39,552 bases of DNA from a virus, in the IMG/VR virus record IMGVR_UViG_3300031565_000132, positions 1 through 39,552 of that record; one strand, given 5' to 3'. The number at the start of each line of letters is the position of its first letter. The first letter of the stretch is position 1. Both the position numbers and the translations under genes were made by a program. Below the pieces are notes generated by a model that ran no database searches, was not told where the DNA came from, and worked only from the letters and a program-made list of their open reading frames with translations. Of this stretch, positions 16,007 to 24,716 are shown in pieces.

Positions 16007-16327
16007 GTGCTTCGACCGCAAGGGTACGCGACGATCGATGATCCCGATACTCGCAAGGTCGAGTACGACACGGCGATGTGTGGTCACTGCCAGCTCCACT
16101 TGCATGTGAAGCCTGGCAGTGGCTGCACCGTCTATCTCTTCCCGCAGGCTGACGGGCGTGTGATCGAGCAGATGGGCGCGTTCTGTCGCGTCTGCATGTC
16201 ACCCGTCTGTCTGTCGTGTGACGAGGTCGGCAACTGCATCCCGTGGGAACGATCGCTGGAGCTCGTGGAGTCGAAGCGGTCGACCATTCGCAGTGTAGAA
16301 GAGGCGCTCGGGCGTTCACTGTCGTAG
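16007..16327 (+). CDS. Zinc-ribbon protein with multiple CxxC motifs
   Basis: 106 residues from a GTG at 16007, with GAGGAG upstream overlapping the previous gene's end. Motifs C25-G-H-C28, C60-R-V-C63 and C68-L-S-C71, plus C40 and C77, give enough ligands for two zinc sites. The C-terminus is a helix (S-T-I-R-S-V-E-E-A-L-G). In a head/tail gene block this may be a small virion component or a DNA-binding regulator; I see no known family. Confidence 0.6.
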   Translation: MLRPQGYATIDDPDTRKVEYDTAMCGHCQLHLHVKPGSGCTVYLFPQADGRVIEQMGAFCRVCMSPVCLSCDEVGNCIPWERSLELVESKRSTIRSVEEALGRSLS

Positions 16328-16354: not shown

Positions 16355-16723
16355 ATGTCCCGGCGTGGAACGCTCGTGCTCGTGCTGCTGCTTGGCTGGA
16401 CGACGCCCCTGTACGCCCAGTCGACTGACTCCTTCCCGTTACATCTCGCCCTGGCCGGCATGATGGCCGCGCATGGGGCCGATCTCTCTACCACCATGTA
16501 TTGCCTGGGGGCGGAGACGTGCCACGAGGCCAATCCGTTCTTTGCCCCGTTGACCCGGCATCCCGCAGCGGCGGGTGCGGTCAAGATGGGCATTGCCGCA
16601 GGCACGGCCTGGGTGCTGCTGCGGCACCACGAGGAGCACCCGAAGCTGGTGTTCTGGACCTCGGTGGGACTAACGGCCTTCTACACGGGCGTCGTGATTC
16701 ACAACGCAAGGCTGGGGCGATAG
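16355..16723 (+). CDS. Secreted/membrane protein with HEANP motif (DUF5658-like)
   Basis: 122 residues. A signal peptide is clear: basic R-R, hydrophobic V-L-V-L-L-L, then cleavage at L-Y-A|Q-S near residue 21. Residues 37-62 read A-H-G-A-D-L-S-T-T then H-E-A-N-P-F. Membrane segments follow at about 73-90 and 98-116, ending V-I-H-N-A-R-L. A-D-x-x-T-T with E-x-N-P and two spans resembles DUF5658-type bacterial proteins, which I have mostly associated with soil Acidobacteria. This would be a host-derived gene between virion genes, perhaps active in the host envelope. Family assignment is from memory. Confidence 0.55.
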   Translation: MSRRGTLVLVLLLGWTTPLYAQSTDSFPLHLALAGMMAAHGADLSTTMYCLGAETCHEANPFFAPLTRHPAAAGAVKMGIAAGTAWVLLRHHEEHPKLVFWTSVGLTAFYTGVVIHNARLGR

Positions 16724-18010
16724 ATGGCGGCACTGGAAAACGCCCTCAAGTTTCTGTCCGGGTTTGAGACGGGACAGGTTAACGACTGGGTTCGGAGTAG
16801 CGGCACGGTGGCAATGGAAACCACCACCGTCAATTCAGGGGCATATAGCCTTCGTGTTAATCCGACGACGACCGCCGTTGGGTATGTCGAACACGACCTG
16901 AACGACCCGGCCTCAAACAACGACACCCTGACCGCCCGATTCTATTTTCGATACGCCACAAAGCCCACGGCAGGTAATGAAGAACTGTTCTTTGGGACGG
17001 GCGGCGGGACGGCAGTAGACGCCTTCGGATTCCGGCTCGATAGCGATGGGCATATCAATCTCTATAGCCATCCTAGTGGCGGGGGTTACACGTTACGCGC
17101 TTCGGGCACAACGGCGCTATCGGTTGATACGTGGTATCTGATTGACGTTTTTATTGAGATCACAGCAGGTGCAACCGCTGACCAAGTTGTCCTCCAGATC
17201 AATGGCGTGGAGGAGTTCAACACCACCTACGTCTTTGCGACGGGTAGTTCAGAACCGCTACCAGTCTTTCTCGGGAAGCGCGTTGACATTAACGGGCAGA
17301 CCGTTGACTTTTTCTTCGATGACTTCCGCTGCGAACGGAACCAGGACACGACTCCCACCTTCTTTGGGGAGGGGAAAATTATCGCCCGATCCCCCGAGAC
17401 TGGTACGCCAACGCACGACGCCTGGGACAAATCGACAGGGTCCGATGCGTGGTCCCTCTGGGATGGGACACCGCCAGATGGCGCGACGTTTTGCGAAAGC
17501 CCCGGCAGCGGTGATCCGCTCGCCCAGACCGCACACATCGCAGCGTTTGATAGTACGCAAACGGGGCATGGCTCCGAAACCATCAGCGGGAGTGACACGC
17601 TCAATGCGGCATCGGTGGTTGCTGCGGCCTATCGACAAAACGGTGCGGCCCGCAACCATGAGCTTCGTCGCATCATCAACTCCAATACGACCGACTCGGT
17701 AATTGGAGATGTGGGCACGGGGGCTGGATCGGATGTGCAAGAGGAGTGGTGGACGACGGACCTCACGCTTACCAACCTCAACGCGATGGAGGCGGGTGGG
17801 TATAAATATGGAGGAGCCGGTGGGCGTGACCTGGGCATCTACGACCTCTGGGTAATGGTGGACTACACGCCCTCGCCGGCCGTCGCACCAGACGATGCCG
17901 CCACCTTCAGCTATTTCCCCGATCGCGCCCGCACCGGCTCCCGCGGCCCGGTCAACACCTCGGGCATGACGCCATCCTGCCACGATGACGGTGAGGCTAT
18001 TCCCATCTAA
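16724..18010 (+). CDS. LamG/concanavalin-like tail protein
   Basis: 428 residues. Its ATG directly follows the previous stop. Residues about 10-200 form a jelly-roll lectin-like domain (L-S-G-F-E-T-G, W-Y-L-I-D-V-F-I-E-I, V-V-L-Q-I-N-G-V-E), typical of LamG/concanavalin-like sugar-binding folds. Residues about 215-390 are another beta domain. The C-terminus contains F-S-Y-F-P-D-R-A-R, a single degenerate copy of the Y-P-D unit that fills the large protein two genes downstream. The first part is visibly less GC-rich than its surroundings. Likely an exposed host-recognition or decoration protein. Confidence 0.6.
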   Translation: MAALENALKFLSGFETGQVNDWVRSSGTVAMETTTVNSGAYSLRVNPTTTAVGYVEHDLNDPASNNDTLTARFYFRYATKPTAGNEELFFGTGGGTAVDAFGFRLDSDGHINLYSHPSGGGYTLRASGTTALSVDTWYLIDVFIEITAGATADQVVLQINGVEEFNTTYVFATGSSEPLPVFLGKRVDINGQTVDFFFDDFRCERNQDTTPTFFGEGKIIARSPETGTPTHDAWDKSTGSDAWSLWDGTPPDGATFCESPGSGDPLAQTAHIAAFDSTQTGHGSETISGSDTLNAASVVAAAYRQNGAARNHELRRIINSNTTDSVIGDVGTGAGSDVQEEWWTTDLTLTNLNAMEAGGYKYGGAGGRDLGIYDLWVMVDYTPSPAVAPDDAATFSYFPDRARTGSRGPVNTSGMTPSCHDDGEAIPI

Positions 18011-19281
18011 TGGCTGACATTCAGACGGTCTACGGCACGTTCACCAAAGCCACCGGCACGGGCAATCAGTCGGTGTCGACCCTGGCCTTTCAGCCCAAGG
18101 CGGTGTTCTTCTGGTGGAATAACCATACCGCCCAGGACACGTTTGAAGACGCCGTGCGATTCGGCTGCGGCCTCTACGACGGCACCTTCCAGGTGGCGAT
18201 CTCCGCGGGGCACGCCGATGGGGGGGCGTCCGCCGACACGCTCTCCACCTTCGACGAAGCCTTCTGCATGCGCATGATGACGGAGGCCGGGTTCAACTAT
18301 GCGCGGGCGGCTGGTGTCTCCCTGGATACGAACGGCTTCACGGTGAACTGGACGATCAATAACGGCCTGGCCGAGACGGTACATTTCCTCGCCGTGGGGG
18401 GCGCGGAGGTACAGGCCAAGGTTGGCGTGGTTGATAGCGGCACGGCCGTGACGACGGTGGCCGCCACGGGCGTTGGGTTCCAGCCGTCGTGTCTGCTCCT
18501 GATGCCGGTGTGGTCCACGGCCACGACCGCGACCGGGGACTGTCGCACACCGGCCATTGGGGTCACGGACGGGGTGAACCAGGGCTGCATGGCCGCGCAC
18601 GGGGAAGACAACGTCAACCCCTCGAACACTACCCGGTATCAGCGCACGGACAAGTGTGTCGCCGCCCTGACGAACACGGGGGCGCTCCTCAAAGAGGCCG
18701 ATATCAGTTCGATGGACGCGGACGGGTTCACCCTCAACTGGACGACCAATGGCGCCCCGGATGGCGGGGTCTATTACCTAGCGATCCGCATGGCTGGGGC
18801 GTCCCCGACCGTGGGCGCCTTCACGCAGAAGACGTCGTCGGGGACCAAAGCTGTGAGCGGACTCGCGGCCGAACCGCAGACGCTGTTGTTTCTCGGCGTG
18901 GGAAACACGGCCAGCGGCGTCGTGGTCGATGGCTGCCGAGCCTCGATCGGGGCGTATCAGCCCGCCAGCGATGTGAACGGCGCCGCGTGGCACGGGTCGA
19001 CGCACGGGGTGACCCCGACGGAGGTGGTCAAGTACAACGCTTCGGCCAAGGCGGTGATCCACGCCACGCCGAATGCGACGGCCGCCAGTAGCACGATCGA
19101 GGCCGAGGCGGAGGTGTCAGCCATCGCGGGGGATGGGTTCACGCTGAACTGGACGACCGCGGATGCCGTCGCCCGCGAAGTGCTTTTTCTCAGCCTGCCC
19201 CTGGTGACGGCGCCGCCGGAAGCAGCCGACCTGTTCTGGTCGCCGCCGGTCGTGCATGTTGAAGGCGGGGCGCGTGGATGA
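18010..19281 (+). CDS. Threefold-repeat tail/decoration protein
   Basis: 423 residues; its ATG overlaps the previous TAA. It is built of three tandem beta modules. L-A-F-Q-P-K at 25-30, V-G-F-Q-P-S at 155-160 and L-A-A-E-P-Q at 285-290 are exactly 130 residues apart. Each module ends with a D/N-G-F-T-V/L-N-W-T strand (108-115, 238-245, 375-382). No family recognised. The C-terminus (L-F-W-S-P-P-V) looks like the beginning of a W-x-P repeat unit continued in the next protein. Repeated beta modules in this position suggest a fibre or surface-exposed tail appendage. Confidence 0.65.
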   Translation: MADIQTVYGTFTKATGTGNQSVSTLAFQPKAVFFWWNNHTAQDTFEDAVRFGCGLYDGTFQVAISAGHADGGASADTLSTFDEAFCMRMMTEAGFNYARAAGVSLDTNGFTVNWTINNGLAETVHFLAVGGAEVQAKVGVVDSGTAVTTVAATGVGFQPSCLLLMPVWSTATTATGDCRTPAIGVTDGVNQGCMAAHGEDNVNPSNTTRYQRTDKCVAALTNTGALLKEADISSMDADGFTLNWTTNGAPDGGVYYLAIRMAGASPTVGAFTQKTSSGTKAVSGLAAEPQTLLFLGVGNTASGVVVDGCRASIGAYQPASDVNGAAWHGSTHGVTPTEVVKYNASAKAVIHATPNATAASSTIEAEAEVSAIAGDGFTLNWTTADAVAREVLFLSLPLVTAPPEAADLFWSPPVVHVEGGARG

Positions 19282-22200
19282 CCTGGCGCGACACCGACCG
19301 GCATTCTGAGCAGACCTTCGGGCCGGTCTTTATCCCGGCAGGCACCCTCCCGGCGCCTGATACCTGGCTCCCTCGCTATCCAGACTTCGCTCGAGCAGCG
19401 GTCATCTCCGCGGCGCTGATTGCCAGCTCCGGGGTGGCGGTGAGTTCGCCGTATCCGGTGGATGCTCGCGGTCAGGTGTTCTGCCACACGCAGGAAGACG
19501 GCACGTTCTCGGAGTGGACCTCGGTTACGGCCGATGCGGACCTCACGGTCGATGCCGCCGCTGCGTTAGCGAACACGCACTATGGGATTCAGGTTGTCGT
19601 TGACGACACCACCACCCTGCAAGCGACACAGGAGTTTGACCGGGTCAACGCACGGGACACGGGTGGCTGGTCACTTCGCTATCACGCAAGTCTTGAGAAT
19701 CTAACCATCAATGTCGGGAATACGGTTGTCCCGATACGGCTCCAAGACGGAAGCGCGTTGTTCAGGTTCCAGTCGCTGATCTCAAACAACGGCGGAACGA
19801 TTCAGGTCCGAGGACAGATACACAACGACGCAGGCGCCAACCAAAACGGCACCCTGATCACGCTTGACTCGCCCACGACAGAACACGTCTTCGCGTTTAT
19901 CGCAACATGGGCATCGTCTGCGACAGCCTCAGATGGAACGCTAGAGTTTTTCATTGACGGTGTGTCGCAAGAGCTTCTGACGGGGCTCGACATCTACGAC
20001 CGGAATGGCCCAGACATCCTTCGCGCTGGGTTGTCCGGCGCGGACGGGGTGACGGCGGGCACGTTCAAGATCGATGAAGTTTGCTTTCGAGACGACACCC
20101 AGTTAATCGAGGACGCCTACCTCCCCGACTGGCGTGGCGTCTACGATGACGTCCTTCCGCACTGGACGCCTATCCATCGAGCCGAGTATCACCGAGCGTT
20201 CTTTTTAGACCCGAACAAGCCGCCATACGCACCAGCGGATCTTGCCTGGGCGCCCACGCTCAGCTACCGATTCCTACAGCCTGGCCTCCCGGCTCTCGGC
20301 AGTATCGAAGGCAGGCTCCAGGCGCCTATTCCGGTCGCGGAGCACCCCCAGTCCCTCAAAGGTGGGCACAAGCACAAGCCGGGGAAGGCGTATGGGCCAG
20401 GGCAGGAAGGCTATGCCCAGGCGCTGGCGGCCTCGTCCGGTTCGTTCGATCCAGGGATCTTCCCGCCACTACTTCCAGGCTCGGTGGCGAGCCAGGTCGC
20501 ACACTACCCCGACTGGATACCGGCGCCGCCACGGCTGCTGACCGCGGCACAGACCGCGTTTTTCCAGAGCCTTGAACCGATCGCGGCGCTCTACGACGAG
20601 TCGGAGTTCGGCTGGGCGCCAGCCTTTGACGCCCAGGTTCACCGCCGCCCAGAGGACCGCTACCAGCACCCGTCGTTCTTCGGCCCGGGCATTGAAGGCG
20701 TTGCCGATGTCGCCGCCGAGGAACTGGGCTGGCTGGCCGTCTACCCGGAGATGGCCCCCGGCCGCCGACCCATCGACTATCTGGGCCGTCTCGTCACGCC
20801 CGAGCTGCCTATCGATCCGCCGCCGCAACTGATCAACTGTGCGCGGGACTTCCTGGCCGCTGACACGACCACGTCCGCCACGGCCGAAGCCGTCGATGGG
20901 CTCTCGACCACGATCGACATTGTCCGCAGCGCCGAGATCGTCGCGTTCCTGTCGCTCGAGTCCAGCGTCGACACGTCTAACCGGGCGGGTAACTGGCGTC
21001 TCGTCATCGACAGCGAGACCGGGCCGACGATCACCCGCGAGCACAGCAACAGCAGCGACACCGGCAGCGTCGGCGTGCTGTTCCGTAGTGGGGTGCTCCC
21101 CGCCGGTACCTACACTGTCTCGGTTGAGCACTGGATCACGGGCGGGGCCGGCACGCTCACCACCGCCCAGGCCACGCTCGCCGTCATGGCGATGGAGGAC
21201 CAGGGCGGGAACCCGTTCATCAACGCCTACGACACGGTCGCCAGTGACACGACGCTCTCGGCCACCCTCGAGGACATCGACGGGCTGACGCAGGATCTCA
21301 GTCTCGACGGGACCAACTTCGTGCTCGGGGCGCTCATGGCGAGCGTCAGCAATTCCGGGGCGAACAACCTCTCCACGCTGGCCATCGACATCGCCGGTGA
21401 GGACGGCACGATCAATCGTCTGGTCTCGGGCGCGGGAGACATCGGAGCGGCGGGGGTGGTCAACCGTTCCACGGCGCGGCTCACCGGGACGCAGACGGTC
21501 AAGGGGCAGCATGCGACCGACGGCGGCACGCTGACCACCGCCCCGAGCCTCCTGTTCGGCCTGGAGCTGGGCACCAGCCCCGCGGAGATTCCCTCGTCCC
21601 ACGTCCGCGTCACCGCCGGGAGCACGACCTCGGCCAGTCTGGTCGACATCCCGGGACTGAATACCGACGTCATCCTCTCGCAGACGTCGAACATCCTGGC
21701 ACTCCTGACGCTGGATGCGACGAAGTCGTCCGGGGGCGATGCCAACTTCGCCATCCAGATCAACGGCGTCGATCAGGAGGCCATCACGCGGACGTTCGGT
21801 GGGGCCAATGATGACGGAGCCGTCGTTGTTGTCGCGCTGACCGCGGCACCCTTGGCCCCCGGGACATATACGGTCACCGCCCGCTGGTCGACGACAGGCG
21901 GGACGCTCTCGATCTTCAACGAAGCGAACCTGACCGTCCTCGCCTGCGAGCACTCGCTTCGCGTGGACGTGCCCGAGCTGAGCTGGGCGCCCACTTACCC
22001 CGACTTCGCCCGCACCCAGCAGCCAGCCGCCGAGTTCCCGGCCTTCGTCTTCGTCGGGGAGCCCGCGGATGTGCCGCCGGCCGCCGAGCGCCTGGCCTGG
22101 CTGGCTGTCTACCCCGACTTCGCTCGTGGGCTGACGCTCGACACCGCCAACCAGCCGACGGGCGCCTACGCCCCGGATGTCGACGAGATCGATGCCGTCG

Positions 22201-24716
22201 CGCTCTATCCGACCTGGGAGTCGACGGCACCCAACCAGCTCCCGGCCTGGACCACGACGCATGGCGCCCAGCTCCAGCAGCCGTTCTTCTTCGACCCGGA
22301 GCCACGGCCGGATGCCTACGACCCGCAGGAGCTGGGCTGGGCTCCGAGCTACGCAGACTTTGCTCGTGCCGAGACGCTGCCGACTGCCGCCCAGACCACC
22401 GGCGCGTTCCTGCCCGACCTGGACGACATCGCCGCAGGGTTGCTGTTCCCGACCTGGACGCCGACGTATCCCGACGAGCTGCTGCCGGCAGTGCGCGTCC
22501 CGGCCTTCCCGGCCCTGGCGTATGTCCCCGACCTGGCCGACTTCGCCGCCGAGGCCGCGTTCCCGACCTGGCTACCGACGTATCCAGCCTTCGCCCGCAC
22601 GACACCGCCGACGACCGAGTTCCCGGCGTTCGTGTTCGTGGGGGAGCCGAGCGATACGCCAGCGGCGGCAGAACGCTTCGCCTGGGAGCCGGTACTCCCT
22701 GACTTTGCGCGGGTCAGCACCCTCTCGGTCGCGGCGCAGCCCTTCCTGTTCTACCAGGAGGACGTTGACGAGCTCGACGCCGAGGCGCTGTATCCGACCT
22801 GGTCGCCCGTCTACCCAGCGACGGCGCCTGGGACGTCGCTCCTCACGGCCCAGCACCCGACGTTCGTCTTCTACCCTGAGCCACAGGTCGACGTTCCCAC
22901 GATTCCGTATTCGGTCTACCCGGATGCGCTCGAGCCGCTCGCCCGCACGGCATGGTATCCGTCGATCTTCTCGCAGATTGACGTCGCTGACATTGCGGCG
23001 GAGACGCCCTACCCGACGTGGTTGCCGGTCGCCCCCTCGTTTGCGCGAGCCGCGCATGTTCATGTCAGCCAGATCCCATCGGTCTTCTATGACTCGACGG
23101 CGACCTTGCCGGCCGCTGCTGCCCCGGAGCTGAGCTGGGCGCCAACACTGAGCTCGCGGTTCAGGCAGCCTGGCCTCCCATCGCTTGGTTCGTATGTCGC
23201 GTCCCTGCAGGCGCCGCTCAGGCGGTGGCCGGATGCGGTCTACCCAGACGCGATCGAGCCGACCCGGGGACTGCACGCCTCGCAGCAGCGCCCGTTTTTC
23301 TTCGATACGGAACCGATTCCGAACCCGGTGCCGGATGTCGTTTCCTCGAGCTATCCAGACCAGGTCGAACCGCCGCGTGGCCTGCCGACCGCGCTGCGCC
23401 CGTCGTTCTTCGCGCCCGCGTTCTGGCCGCCGAATACAGACGTCCCCAAGTTGGCCTGGACGCCGGTCTACCCCGGTCGGATCGACCCGCCGCAGGGGCT
23501 GACACCCTCGCTGCATCCGTCGTTCTTCCAGCCAGCCGCCTGGGCGCCGAACATCTCTGGCCCAGCGATTGGATGGCTGCCGGTCTACCCGACGACGTTG
23601 CCGCAGTGGGACGCGACCACCCACGCGAGTCGCATTCGCAGCGTCTTCTTCGACCCGGCGGATCTGAAGATTGACGTCGACCAACTGGCGTGGCACCCGG
23701 TCTACCCAGACGCGCTCCCTCAATGGGCGCTCTCGGTCCATACCAGTCGCATACCGTCGTACGCCGAACCTGGTTTCTGGCCGCCGAACACTACGATTCC
23801 AGACCTGAGCTGGTCGCCGGTCTACCCAGACTTCGCTCGCGTAGCCGAGCTGCACGCCAGTCAGATCCCGAGCGTCTTCCCGCCGGCCTTCTGGCCGCCA
23901 AACACTGGCGTCCCAGAACTGGCCTGGGCGCCGGTCTATCCGTCGCGGATAGCGCCGACGCAAGGACTCGAGGCCCAGCACCAGCGAGCGACGTTCTTCG
24001 ACCCCGACCCACAGGTCACGCCCATTGACGAGGCGTGGTGGCGTCCGGTCTATCCGTCCTGGCTGGCGCCGCCCACCGGGCTTGCGCCCTACCTGGCCCC
24101 GTCGTATGCCGAACCGGCATTCTGGCCGCCGAACACGCCAGTTCCGGCGCTGAGCTGGACGCCCGACTACCCGGCACAGCTCGCACCGCCAGCGGGGCTG
24201 CCGGCGTATCAGCAGCAGACGGTCGCGTTCAACCCGGCCCCACAGGTCGACCCGGTCGATGAGCTGGCGTGGCGTCCGGTCTATCCCGACATCGTGCGCG
24301 GGCTGTCGGTCCATGCGAGCCAGCAGGATGCGTTCGTCCTCTACGAAGACCCGCTGCCAGACGAGCCTGTGCTCTCGTGGGCGCCGGTCTATCCAGACTC
24401 CGCGCCTGGTCGCCCGCCGCTCACGCCGACCGTCATTACGCCGGTCTATCTGGGCGAGCCTGTCATCCCCCAGGCCGTGCTCTCGTGGGCGCCGGTCTAT
24501 CCAGACTTCGCCAGGCGCCAGCTCTCGAATGCGGCGTTCCAGTCGTTCTGGTTCCAGCCGGGCCCAGAGGTCTACCCGAACGACGGGATCGGCTGTATCC
24601 TCGTCACAACTGAAGGACTCGCGCAGCCGCTGATGGTGAGCGAGCTCGTGGGGGCGCCGGATCTCGACACCGAGACGCTGACGCAACCGCTCATGGTAGA
24701 TGAACAGGTGTGCTAG
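19278..24716 (+). CDS. Giant W-x-P-x-Y-P-D repeat tail protein
   Basis: 1812 residues; the ATG overlaps the previous stop (ATGA). Layout: one Y-P-D unit near 29-36; a LamG-like beta domain at about 60-280; about five units at 285-520; three tandem beta modules of about 115 residues at 525-895, each with an S-x-T-x-D-I-x-G-L start and two keeping a P-A-G-T-Y-T-V-like hairpin; then about 23 units of 33-43 residues from 902 to 1780; and a tail with duplicated Q-P-L-M-V. A typical unit is hydrophobic-x-W-x-P-V-Y-P-D, a short variable stretch, Q/H-P-S-F-F-x-P, then an acidic/Pro linker. No cysteine pattern, coiled coil or enzyme motif is seen. Probably an extended, surface-exposed adhesive or fibre protein. 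The family is unknown to me. Confidence 0.75.
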   Translation: MTWRDTDRHSEQTFGPVFIPAGTLPAPDTWLPRYPDFARAAVISAALIASSGVAVSSPYPVDARGQVFCHTQEDGTFSEWTSVTADADLTVDAAAALANTHYGIQVVVDDTTTLQATQEFDRVNARDTGGWSLRYHASLENLTINVGNTVVPIRLQDGSALFRFQSLISNNGGTIQVRGQIHNDAGANQNGTLITLDSPTTEHVFAFIATWASSATASDGTLEFFIDGVSQELLTGLDIYDRNGPDILRAGLSGADGVTAGTFKIDEVCFRDDTQLIEDAYLPDWRGVYDDVLPHWTPIHRAEYHRAFFLDPNKPPYAPADLAWAPTLSYRFLQPGLPALGSIEGRLQAPIPVAEHPQSLKGGHKHKPGKAYGPGQEGYAQALAASSGSFDPGIFPPLLPGSVASQVAHYPDWIPAPPRLLTAAQTAFFQSLEPIAALYDESEFGWAPAFDAQVHRRPEDRYQHPSFFGPGIEGVADVAAEELGWLAVYPEMAPGRRPIDYLGRLVTPELPIDPPPQLINCARDFLAADTTTSATAEAVDGLSTTIDIVRSAEIVAFLSLESSVDTSNRAGNWRLVIDSETGPTITREHSNSSDTGSVGVLFRSGVLPAGTYTVSVEHWITGGAGTLTTAQATLAVMAMEDQGGNPFINAYDTVASDTTLSATLEDIDGLTQDLSLDGTNFVLGALMASVSNSGANNLSTLAIDIAGEDGTINRLVSGAGDIGAAGVVNRSTARLTGTQTVKGQHATDGGTLTTAPSLLFGLELGTSPAEIPSSHVRVTAGSTTSASLVDIPGLNTDVILSQTSNILALLTLDATKSSGGDANFAIQINGVDQEAITRTFGGANDDGAVVVVALTAAPLAPGTYTVTARWSTTGGTLSIFNEANLTVLACEHSLRVDVPELSWAPTYPDFARTQQPAAEFPAFVFVGEPADVPPAAERLAWLAVYPDFARGLTLDTANQPTGAYAPDVDEIDAVALYPTWESTAPNQLPAWTTTHGAQLQQPFFFDPEPRPDAYDPQELGWAPSYADFARAETLPTAAQTTGAFLPDLDDIAAGLLFPTWTPTYPDELLPAVRVPAFPALAYVPDLADFAAEAAFPTWLPTYPAFARTTPPTTEFPAFVFVGEPSDTPAAAERFAWEPVLPDFARVSTLSVAAQPFLFYQEDVDELDAEALYPTWSPVYPATAPGTSLLTAQHPTFVFYPEPQVDVPTIPYSVYPDALEPLARTAWYPSIFSQIDVADIAAETPYPTWLPVAPSFARAAHVHVSQIPSVFYDSTATLPAAAAPELSWAPTLSSRFRQPGLPSLGSYVASLQAPLRRWPDAVYPDAIEPTRGLHASQQRPFFFDTEPIPNPVPDVVSSSYPDQVEPPRGLPTALRPSFFAPAFWPPNTDVPKLAWTPVYPGRIDPPQGLTPSLHPSFFQPAAWAPNISGPAIGWLPVYPTTLPQWDATTHASRIRSVFFDPADLKIDVDQLAWHPVYPDALPQWALSVHTSRIPSYAEPGFWPPNTTIPDLSWSPVYPDFARVAELHASQIPSVFPPAFWPPNTGVPELAWAPVYPSRIAPTQGLEAQHQRATFFDPDPQVTPIDEAWWRPVYPSWLAPPTGLAPYLAPSYAEPAFWPPNTPVPALSWTPDYPAQLAPPAGLPAYQQQTVAFNPAPQVDPVDELAWRPVYPDIVRGLSVHASQQDAFVLYEDPLPDEPVLSWAPVYPDSAPGRPPLTPTVITPVYLGEPVIPQAVLSWAPVYPDFARRQLSNAAFQSFWFQPGPEVYPNDGIGCILVTTEGLAQPLMVSELVGAPDLDTETLTQPLMVDEQVC
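21981..24590 (+). repeat. Array of about 23 degenerate W-x-P-x-Y-P-D coding repeats
   Basis: Units average about 114 bases and are divergent in DNA, so they are seen mainly in protein. Islands of near identity remain, for example ttctggccgccgaaca-like segments near 23421, 23775, 23889 and 24120, and gcgccggtctatccagac at about 24382 and 24490. The reading frame is kept throughout. Variation between units with conserved edges is the pattern expected of repeat expansion and recombination. Confidence 0.8.

Follow-up and report, generated by a model that had tools for sequence, protein, structure and literature searches.

A tandem W-x-P-x-[YF]-P-D repeat array protein and its associated gene cassette in uncultivated phages

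BACON is a folded domain of about 90 residues. Tandem BACON repeats in crAss-like phages formed arrays in structural proteins, evolved by duplication, and were proposed to act in host binding (PMC6949934). The array protein P0001 and its relatives were likewise tandem-repeat arrays in phage proteins, but BACON is a named family with bacterial homologues, while the unit of P0001 and its relatives spanned 31–41 aa, had no confidently predicted fold, and belonged to no named family. MORN repeats (PF02493) are also short tandem repeats, but the units of the P0001 family lacked the MORN pattern. Laminin_G_3/concanavalin-like lectin domains (PF13385) were found inside array proteins of relatives and in a gene neighboring one array (G016; see below) but were undetected in P0001, and they were unrelated to the repeat unit itself. 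Tandem-repeat surface proteins of phages are a known kind, but neither the unit nor the cassette, nor their occurrence beyond cultivated phages, seems to have been described in the literature searched, and the motif was described in no paper found in the open-access literature.

The window (the whole 39,552-nucleotide stretch analyzed, i.e., positions 1 to 39,552 of the uncultivated virus record IMGVR_UViG_3300031565_000132) carried the array gene between terminase, portal, and major head genes on its upstream side and two phrog_399 structural genes on its downstream side (features of the locus in Table 1). In P0001, the motif W-x-P-x-[YLFA]-P was observed 17 times, compared to a mean of 0.19 and a maximum of 3 in 1000 shuffles. 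A profile from 16 seed units matched the P0001 ORF at E 3e-213 (next best 0.28 in the six-frame window, with no second ORF matched). The family-wide profile, refined on 31 array proteins (see below), gave 25 W-x-P-x-[YF]-P-D units at i-E<0.01, composed of 3 N-terminal units (residues 27–56, 409–431, and 483–511) and 22 units in residues 899–1763; both profiles were trained partly on P0001, and its 25 units are therefore internal members rather than an independent test. Four further degenerate units were recognized with the family-wide profile. The original prediction had counted about 23 units plus about six near the N-terminus: the array itself was real, while the count was slightly generous, with only 22 plus 3 being solid.

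Table 1. Features of the array locus in the window
Feature	Position	Strand	Evidence or remark
C2, 145 aa	15565..16002	+	Retained upstream of arrays across phages that are otherwise unlike
C1, small CxxC protein	16007..16327	+	Directly after C2, conserved in cassette
P0006, PHROG 2448	16724..18010	+	C-terminus resembles half-unit (SYFPDRAR)
P0005	18010..19281	+	C-terminus DLFWSPPVV resembles half-unit; overlaps array start
Array protein P0001, 1812 aa	19278..24716	+	ORF and coordinates verified
N-terminal signature (SEQTFGPVFIPAGTLP)	19302..19349	+	N-termini compared by eye; counterpart of 'xQYQxxxEPxxxP' opening other array proteins
N-terminal unit 1, residues 27-56	19356..19445	+	Family HMM 21.8 bits
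Insert, residues 58-288, beta-rich-looking	19449..20141	+	LamG unsupported
Distant internal duplicate, copies A and B	20236..20299 (A); 23125-23188 (B)	+	73% DNA identity over 64 nt
N-terminal unit 2, residues about 408-431	20499..20570	+	HMM 15.0 bits
N-terminal unit 3, residues about 482-511	20721..20810	+	HMM 14.5 bits
Threefold module, residues 517-892, three ~120-aa copies	20826..21953	+	phmmer 35-40 bits between copies
Main array, 22 units, residues 899-1763	21972..24566	+	Seed and family profiles
C-terminal short repeats ending in Cys	24585..24713	+	Sequence inspection; like tails in L004, L010, L054, L116
P0007, 130 aa	24717..25109	+	Homologues near array in G003, G007, G018

P0001 displayed a modular architecture, as had been predicted, with the insert and the threefold module interrupting its units; the copies making up the threefold module recognized one another, and the pair of close copies expected near 20248 and 23137 was recovered at the DNA level (Table 1). 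The LamG-like label given earlier to the insert was unsupported: no profile match to LamG or a concanavalin-like lectin was found in residues 58–288, and no support came from Pfam, from the LamG domains of relatives, or from the neighbor P0006. Neither the insert nor the threefold module corresponded to a named fold. The designation 'tail protein' was not borne out either, as the gene had the major head gene on one side and additional structural genes on the other, and P0001 had no tail-fiber family match in PHROGs, Pfam, or NCBIfam; in one relative (G014), baseplate genes preceded the cassette. Two minus-strand open frames, 22572–24686 (704 aa) and 20469–22262 (597 aa), ran antisense to the array and probably just reflect the high G+C content and the codon usage of the repeats.

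The earlier statement that no named family was known for the unit was upheld: searches of PHROGs, Pfam, and NCBIfam gave nothing meaningful for P0001, and a three-unit profile had no match in the PDB. At E 0.5, nothing except a subthreshold FlgD_ig was found in Pfam for P0001, with neither BACON nor MORN among the matches. A tblastn search of 50,697 phage records with seven array proteins as queries (P0001, L008, L011, L045, L055, L116, and L121; limits 1e-5 to 0.1) gave no match. A MORN match on L030 was rejected as diffuse (26.9 bits summed, with all single stretches failing), no MORN match was present in the other array proteins scanned, and beta-lactamase/CATSPER-type matches were dropped as diffuse or subthreshold. 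The whole-protein P0001 search of viral contigs identified no relative because the repeats had diverged.

Relatives were found with degenerate DNA patterns for two successive units, and these relatives came from IMG/VR contigs plus one Actinomycetes MAG (two contigs). Pattern matches in bacterial genomes (e.g., L014, L018, and L029) were judged to be chance, each with one or two motifs in short frames. After filtering with the unit HMM, 31 array proteins remained (eight of them added via C2; see below), and they were held by about 28 uncultivated phage contigs of 5–197 kb with differing heads and tails. The 31 proteins each contained 4–26 units with a period of 31–41 aa, and P0001 displayed the same tandem units, period, invariant W, and [YF]-P-D. 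Across 272 units from the 31 proteins, conservation was 1.00 for W (an invariance partly imposed by how the units were found), 0.95 for P10, 0.90 for P28, 0.83 for D11, and 0.80 for P7, while position 9 was Y (0.74) or F (0.23), together 0.97. The second block proposed in the original prediction, P-S-F-F-x-P, was real but loose.

The mean unit identity was 0.44 within a protein versus 0.29 between proteins and rose to 0.68 for L030, a pattern that recent duplication would produce; L030 was the most homogenized array protein, with tandem repeats still present at the DNA level. The alignment of L045 and L030 contained gaps of 31, 32, 32, and 34 residues, each corresponding to whole units, and in G003, G007, and G018, which were the closest relatives, the syntenic protein had 4 units versus 25 in P0001. 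Growth by internal duplication was supported, as originally anticipated, and unit number varied among related phages.

Several variants of the array proteins were observed. In L115:11984–15538 and L143:13429–16326, most units were swapped for other short repeats (LASLTLSAPQPTV; ATPSLTATVSGALSTGI) with the array position kept, as if the array slot accepted different repeat types. Three small proteins (L121:14084–14683, L116:14178–14747, and L140:10443–10958) had one or two units followed by ~20-aa 'RVSQIPVE..YQYA' repeats. Many array proteins ended in C-terminal short repeats of the E-T-x-x-V-P-x-L or Y-E-S-R-x-I-V-V type (L004, L010, L050, L054, L008, and the window at 24585–24713), and some carried N-terminal 'LLLEDG' repeats (L058, L115, and L004). 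A ~300-aa domain (AVRQNIL..LAF...TTFGTD.TFTA) inserted in the array was common to L039, L046, and L117.

The arrays usually belonged to a small conserved gene cassette, in the order C2, C1, 0–3 variable genes (in at least one case encoding a LamG lectin), and the array as the last gene. C2 and C1 were located upstream of the array in about 15 of 20 records, even in those without any match to the head proteins of the window, and they were also upstream of the array on the same strand in the window. In G006 and G019, the cassette followed major head genes that belonged to other families; G016 had the same head family as the window. C1 looks like a zinc-binding protein. Within the cassette of the window, 16355–16723 encoded a DUF5658 membrane-type protein (Pfam 2.6e-9), for which the comparison with the other records revealed no homologue. 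Laminin_G_3 was detected inside the array protein L115 (at E 1e-6, passing the curated cut-off), just below the cut-off in L091/L012, and in the G016 cassette gene adjoining the array (E 7e-18).

C2 represented a family of ~150-aa proteins with a conserved 'LNQRATFRWVAAPGGELV.PAT' and 275 relatives in IMG/VR contigs; it had no match in Pfam, PHROGs, or the PDB, gave a weak match (21.6 bits) to an encapsulin cargo protein model in NCBIfam, and was matched in 50,697 phage records by only one, metagenomic MW202566.1, in which no array was detectable. An array-independent test was based on the 79 of the 275 C2 relatives that had been collected by C2 alone, 55 of which had at least 3 kb downstream. 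An array was found downstream on the same strand at 18 of these 55 loci (10 contigs already known from the array searches and 8 new) and upstream or on the other strand at none, and no array was detectable at two thirds of the loci, which makes the array a common but not obligatory companion of C2.

AlphaFold gave pLDDT 59 and pTM 0.16 for four units (26 aligned sequences) and pLDDT 75 and pTM 0.20 for two units (74 sequences), in monomer models to which a trimeric fiber or folding upon oligomerization would be invisible. The two-unit model contained two 3-residue helical turns only, with no strand and no long helix, so in this model the unit looks like an extended linear motif; a globular unit fold was not confidently predicted, while the local conformation seems to be defined. 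The predicted chain was locally ordered but extended, and the idea that units were folded structural modules was accordingly not supported. Tertiary structure was absent from both models. This result points to an extended chain of motifs or to a chain that folds upon binding or oligomerization.

These data were considered under several explanations. There is about an even chance that P0001 is a modular, extended virion-surface array that carries beta-rich domains and has been lengthened by whole-unit duplication. Under this explanation, the ~38-aa unit would be a short linear motif P-x-L-x-W-x-P-x-[YF]-P-D followed by a loose basic/Pro/aromatic block, and the units would sit on an extended, Pro-rich chain, a long arm or strap along which inserted domains would be spaced out and presented for host-surface binding: (i) the insert and the threefold module in P0001 and (ii) LamG lectins in relatives. 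The array gene closes an accessory cassette (C2, C1, and variable, partly lectin genes) distributed across phages with differing heads and tails, and its length changes through gain and loss of whole units. The data show the family, the cassette, the modularity, the whole-unit indels, and the lack of a predicted globular fold, whereas the virion-surface location, the extended arm, and the host-binding role are inferred from the order of the genes, the composition, and the lectin domains that relatives carry; the adhesive function suggested for P0001 at the outset is likewise an inference. A disordered spacer, with the array acting as an entropic bristle whose sequence matters little beyond extension, would fit the low pTM and the Pro-rich composition, but W and [YF]-P-D were strongly kept in 272 units of 31 proteins despite 29% between-protein identity; conservation of this kind is not what one would expect of a pure spacer, and this explanation is very unlikely.

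The main rival to the extended surface array, itself rather improbable, is a docking array, in which each W-x-P-x-YPD unit would bind one copy of a repeated virion protein (C2 being the obvious candidate), and the array would be a strap crosslinking the particle and holding lectin-like proteins tagged by a single C-terminal half-unit. The combination of an invariant motif, variable spacers, and the absence of a predicted fold is characteristic of linear motifs, and C2 and C1 often accompany the array, but many C2 loci lacked arrays. Half-unit-like C-termini were present in the G016 LamG protein and several other cassette proteins, P0006 and P0005 among them. A pattern test found such C-termini in 4 of 29 cassette proteins, including a LamG protein in G016, versus 2 of 297 others (Fisher p 7e-4, with the pattern chosen post hoc after examples had been seen), but the unit HMM did not confirm them, ranking the half-unit tails no higher than controls. 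It is doubtful that the units instead fold only as intertwined homotrimers to form the shaft of a long tail or head fiber with knob-like inserts: the 31–41-aa period, the short beta-like repeats with which many members end, and the G014 cassette behind baseplate genes would suit such a shaft, but the unit profile had no evident heptad or beta-spiral pattern and was high in Pro, the period shifted by several residues within one protein, and no chaperone domain was recognized.

Although the unit belongs to no named family and matched nothing in 50,697 phage records, it is found across phages that differ greatly in size and in head/tail type. The C2–C1–array cassette provides a genomic handle for finding and testing this family, through which the otherwise anonymous genes of many environmental phages could be annotated jointly as one candidate surface system. 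An unlikely extension of the docking idea would make the W-x-P-x-YPD unit the general docking tag in a surface system that is widespread among uncultivated phages, with C2 as the receptor subunit on the particle, lectins carrying one tag, and the array up to 26; if this were true, phages would build interchangeable host-binding coats from tagged parts.
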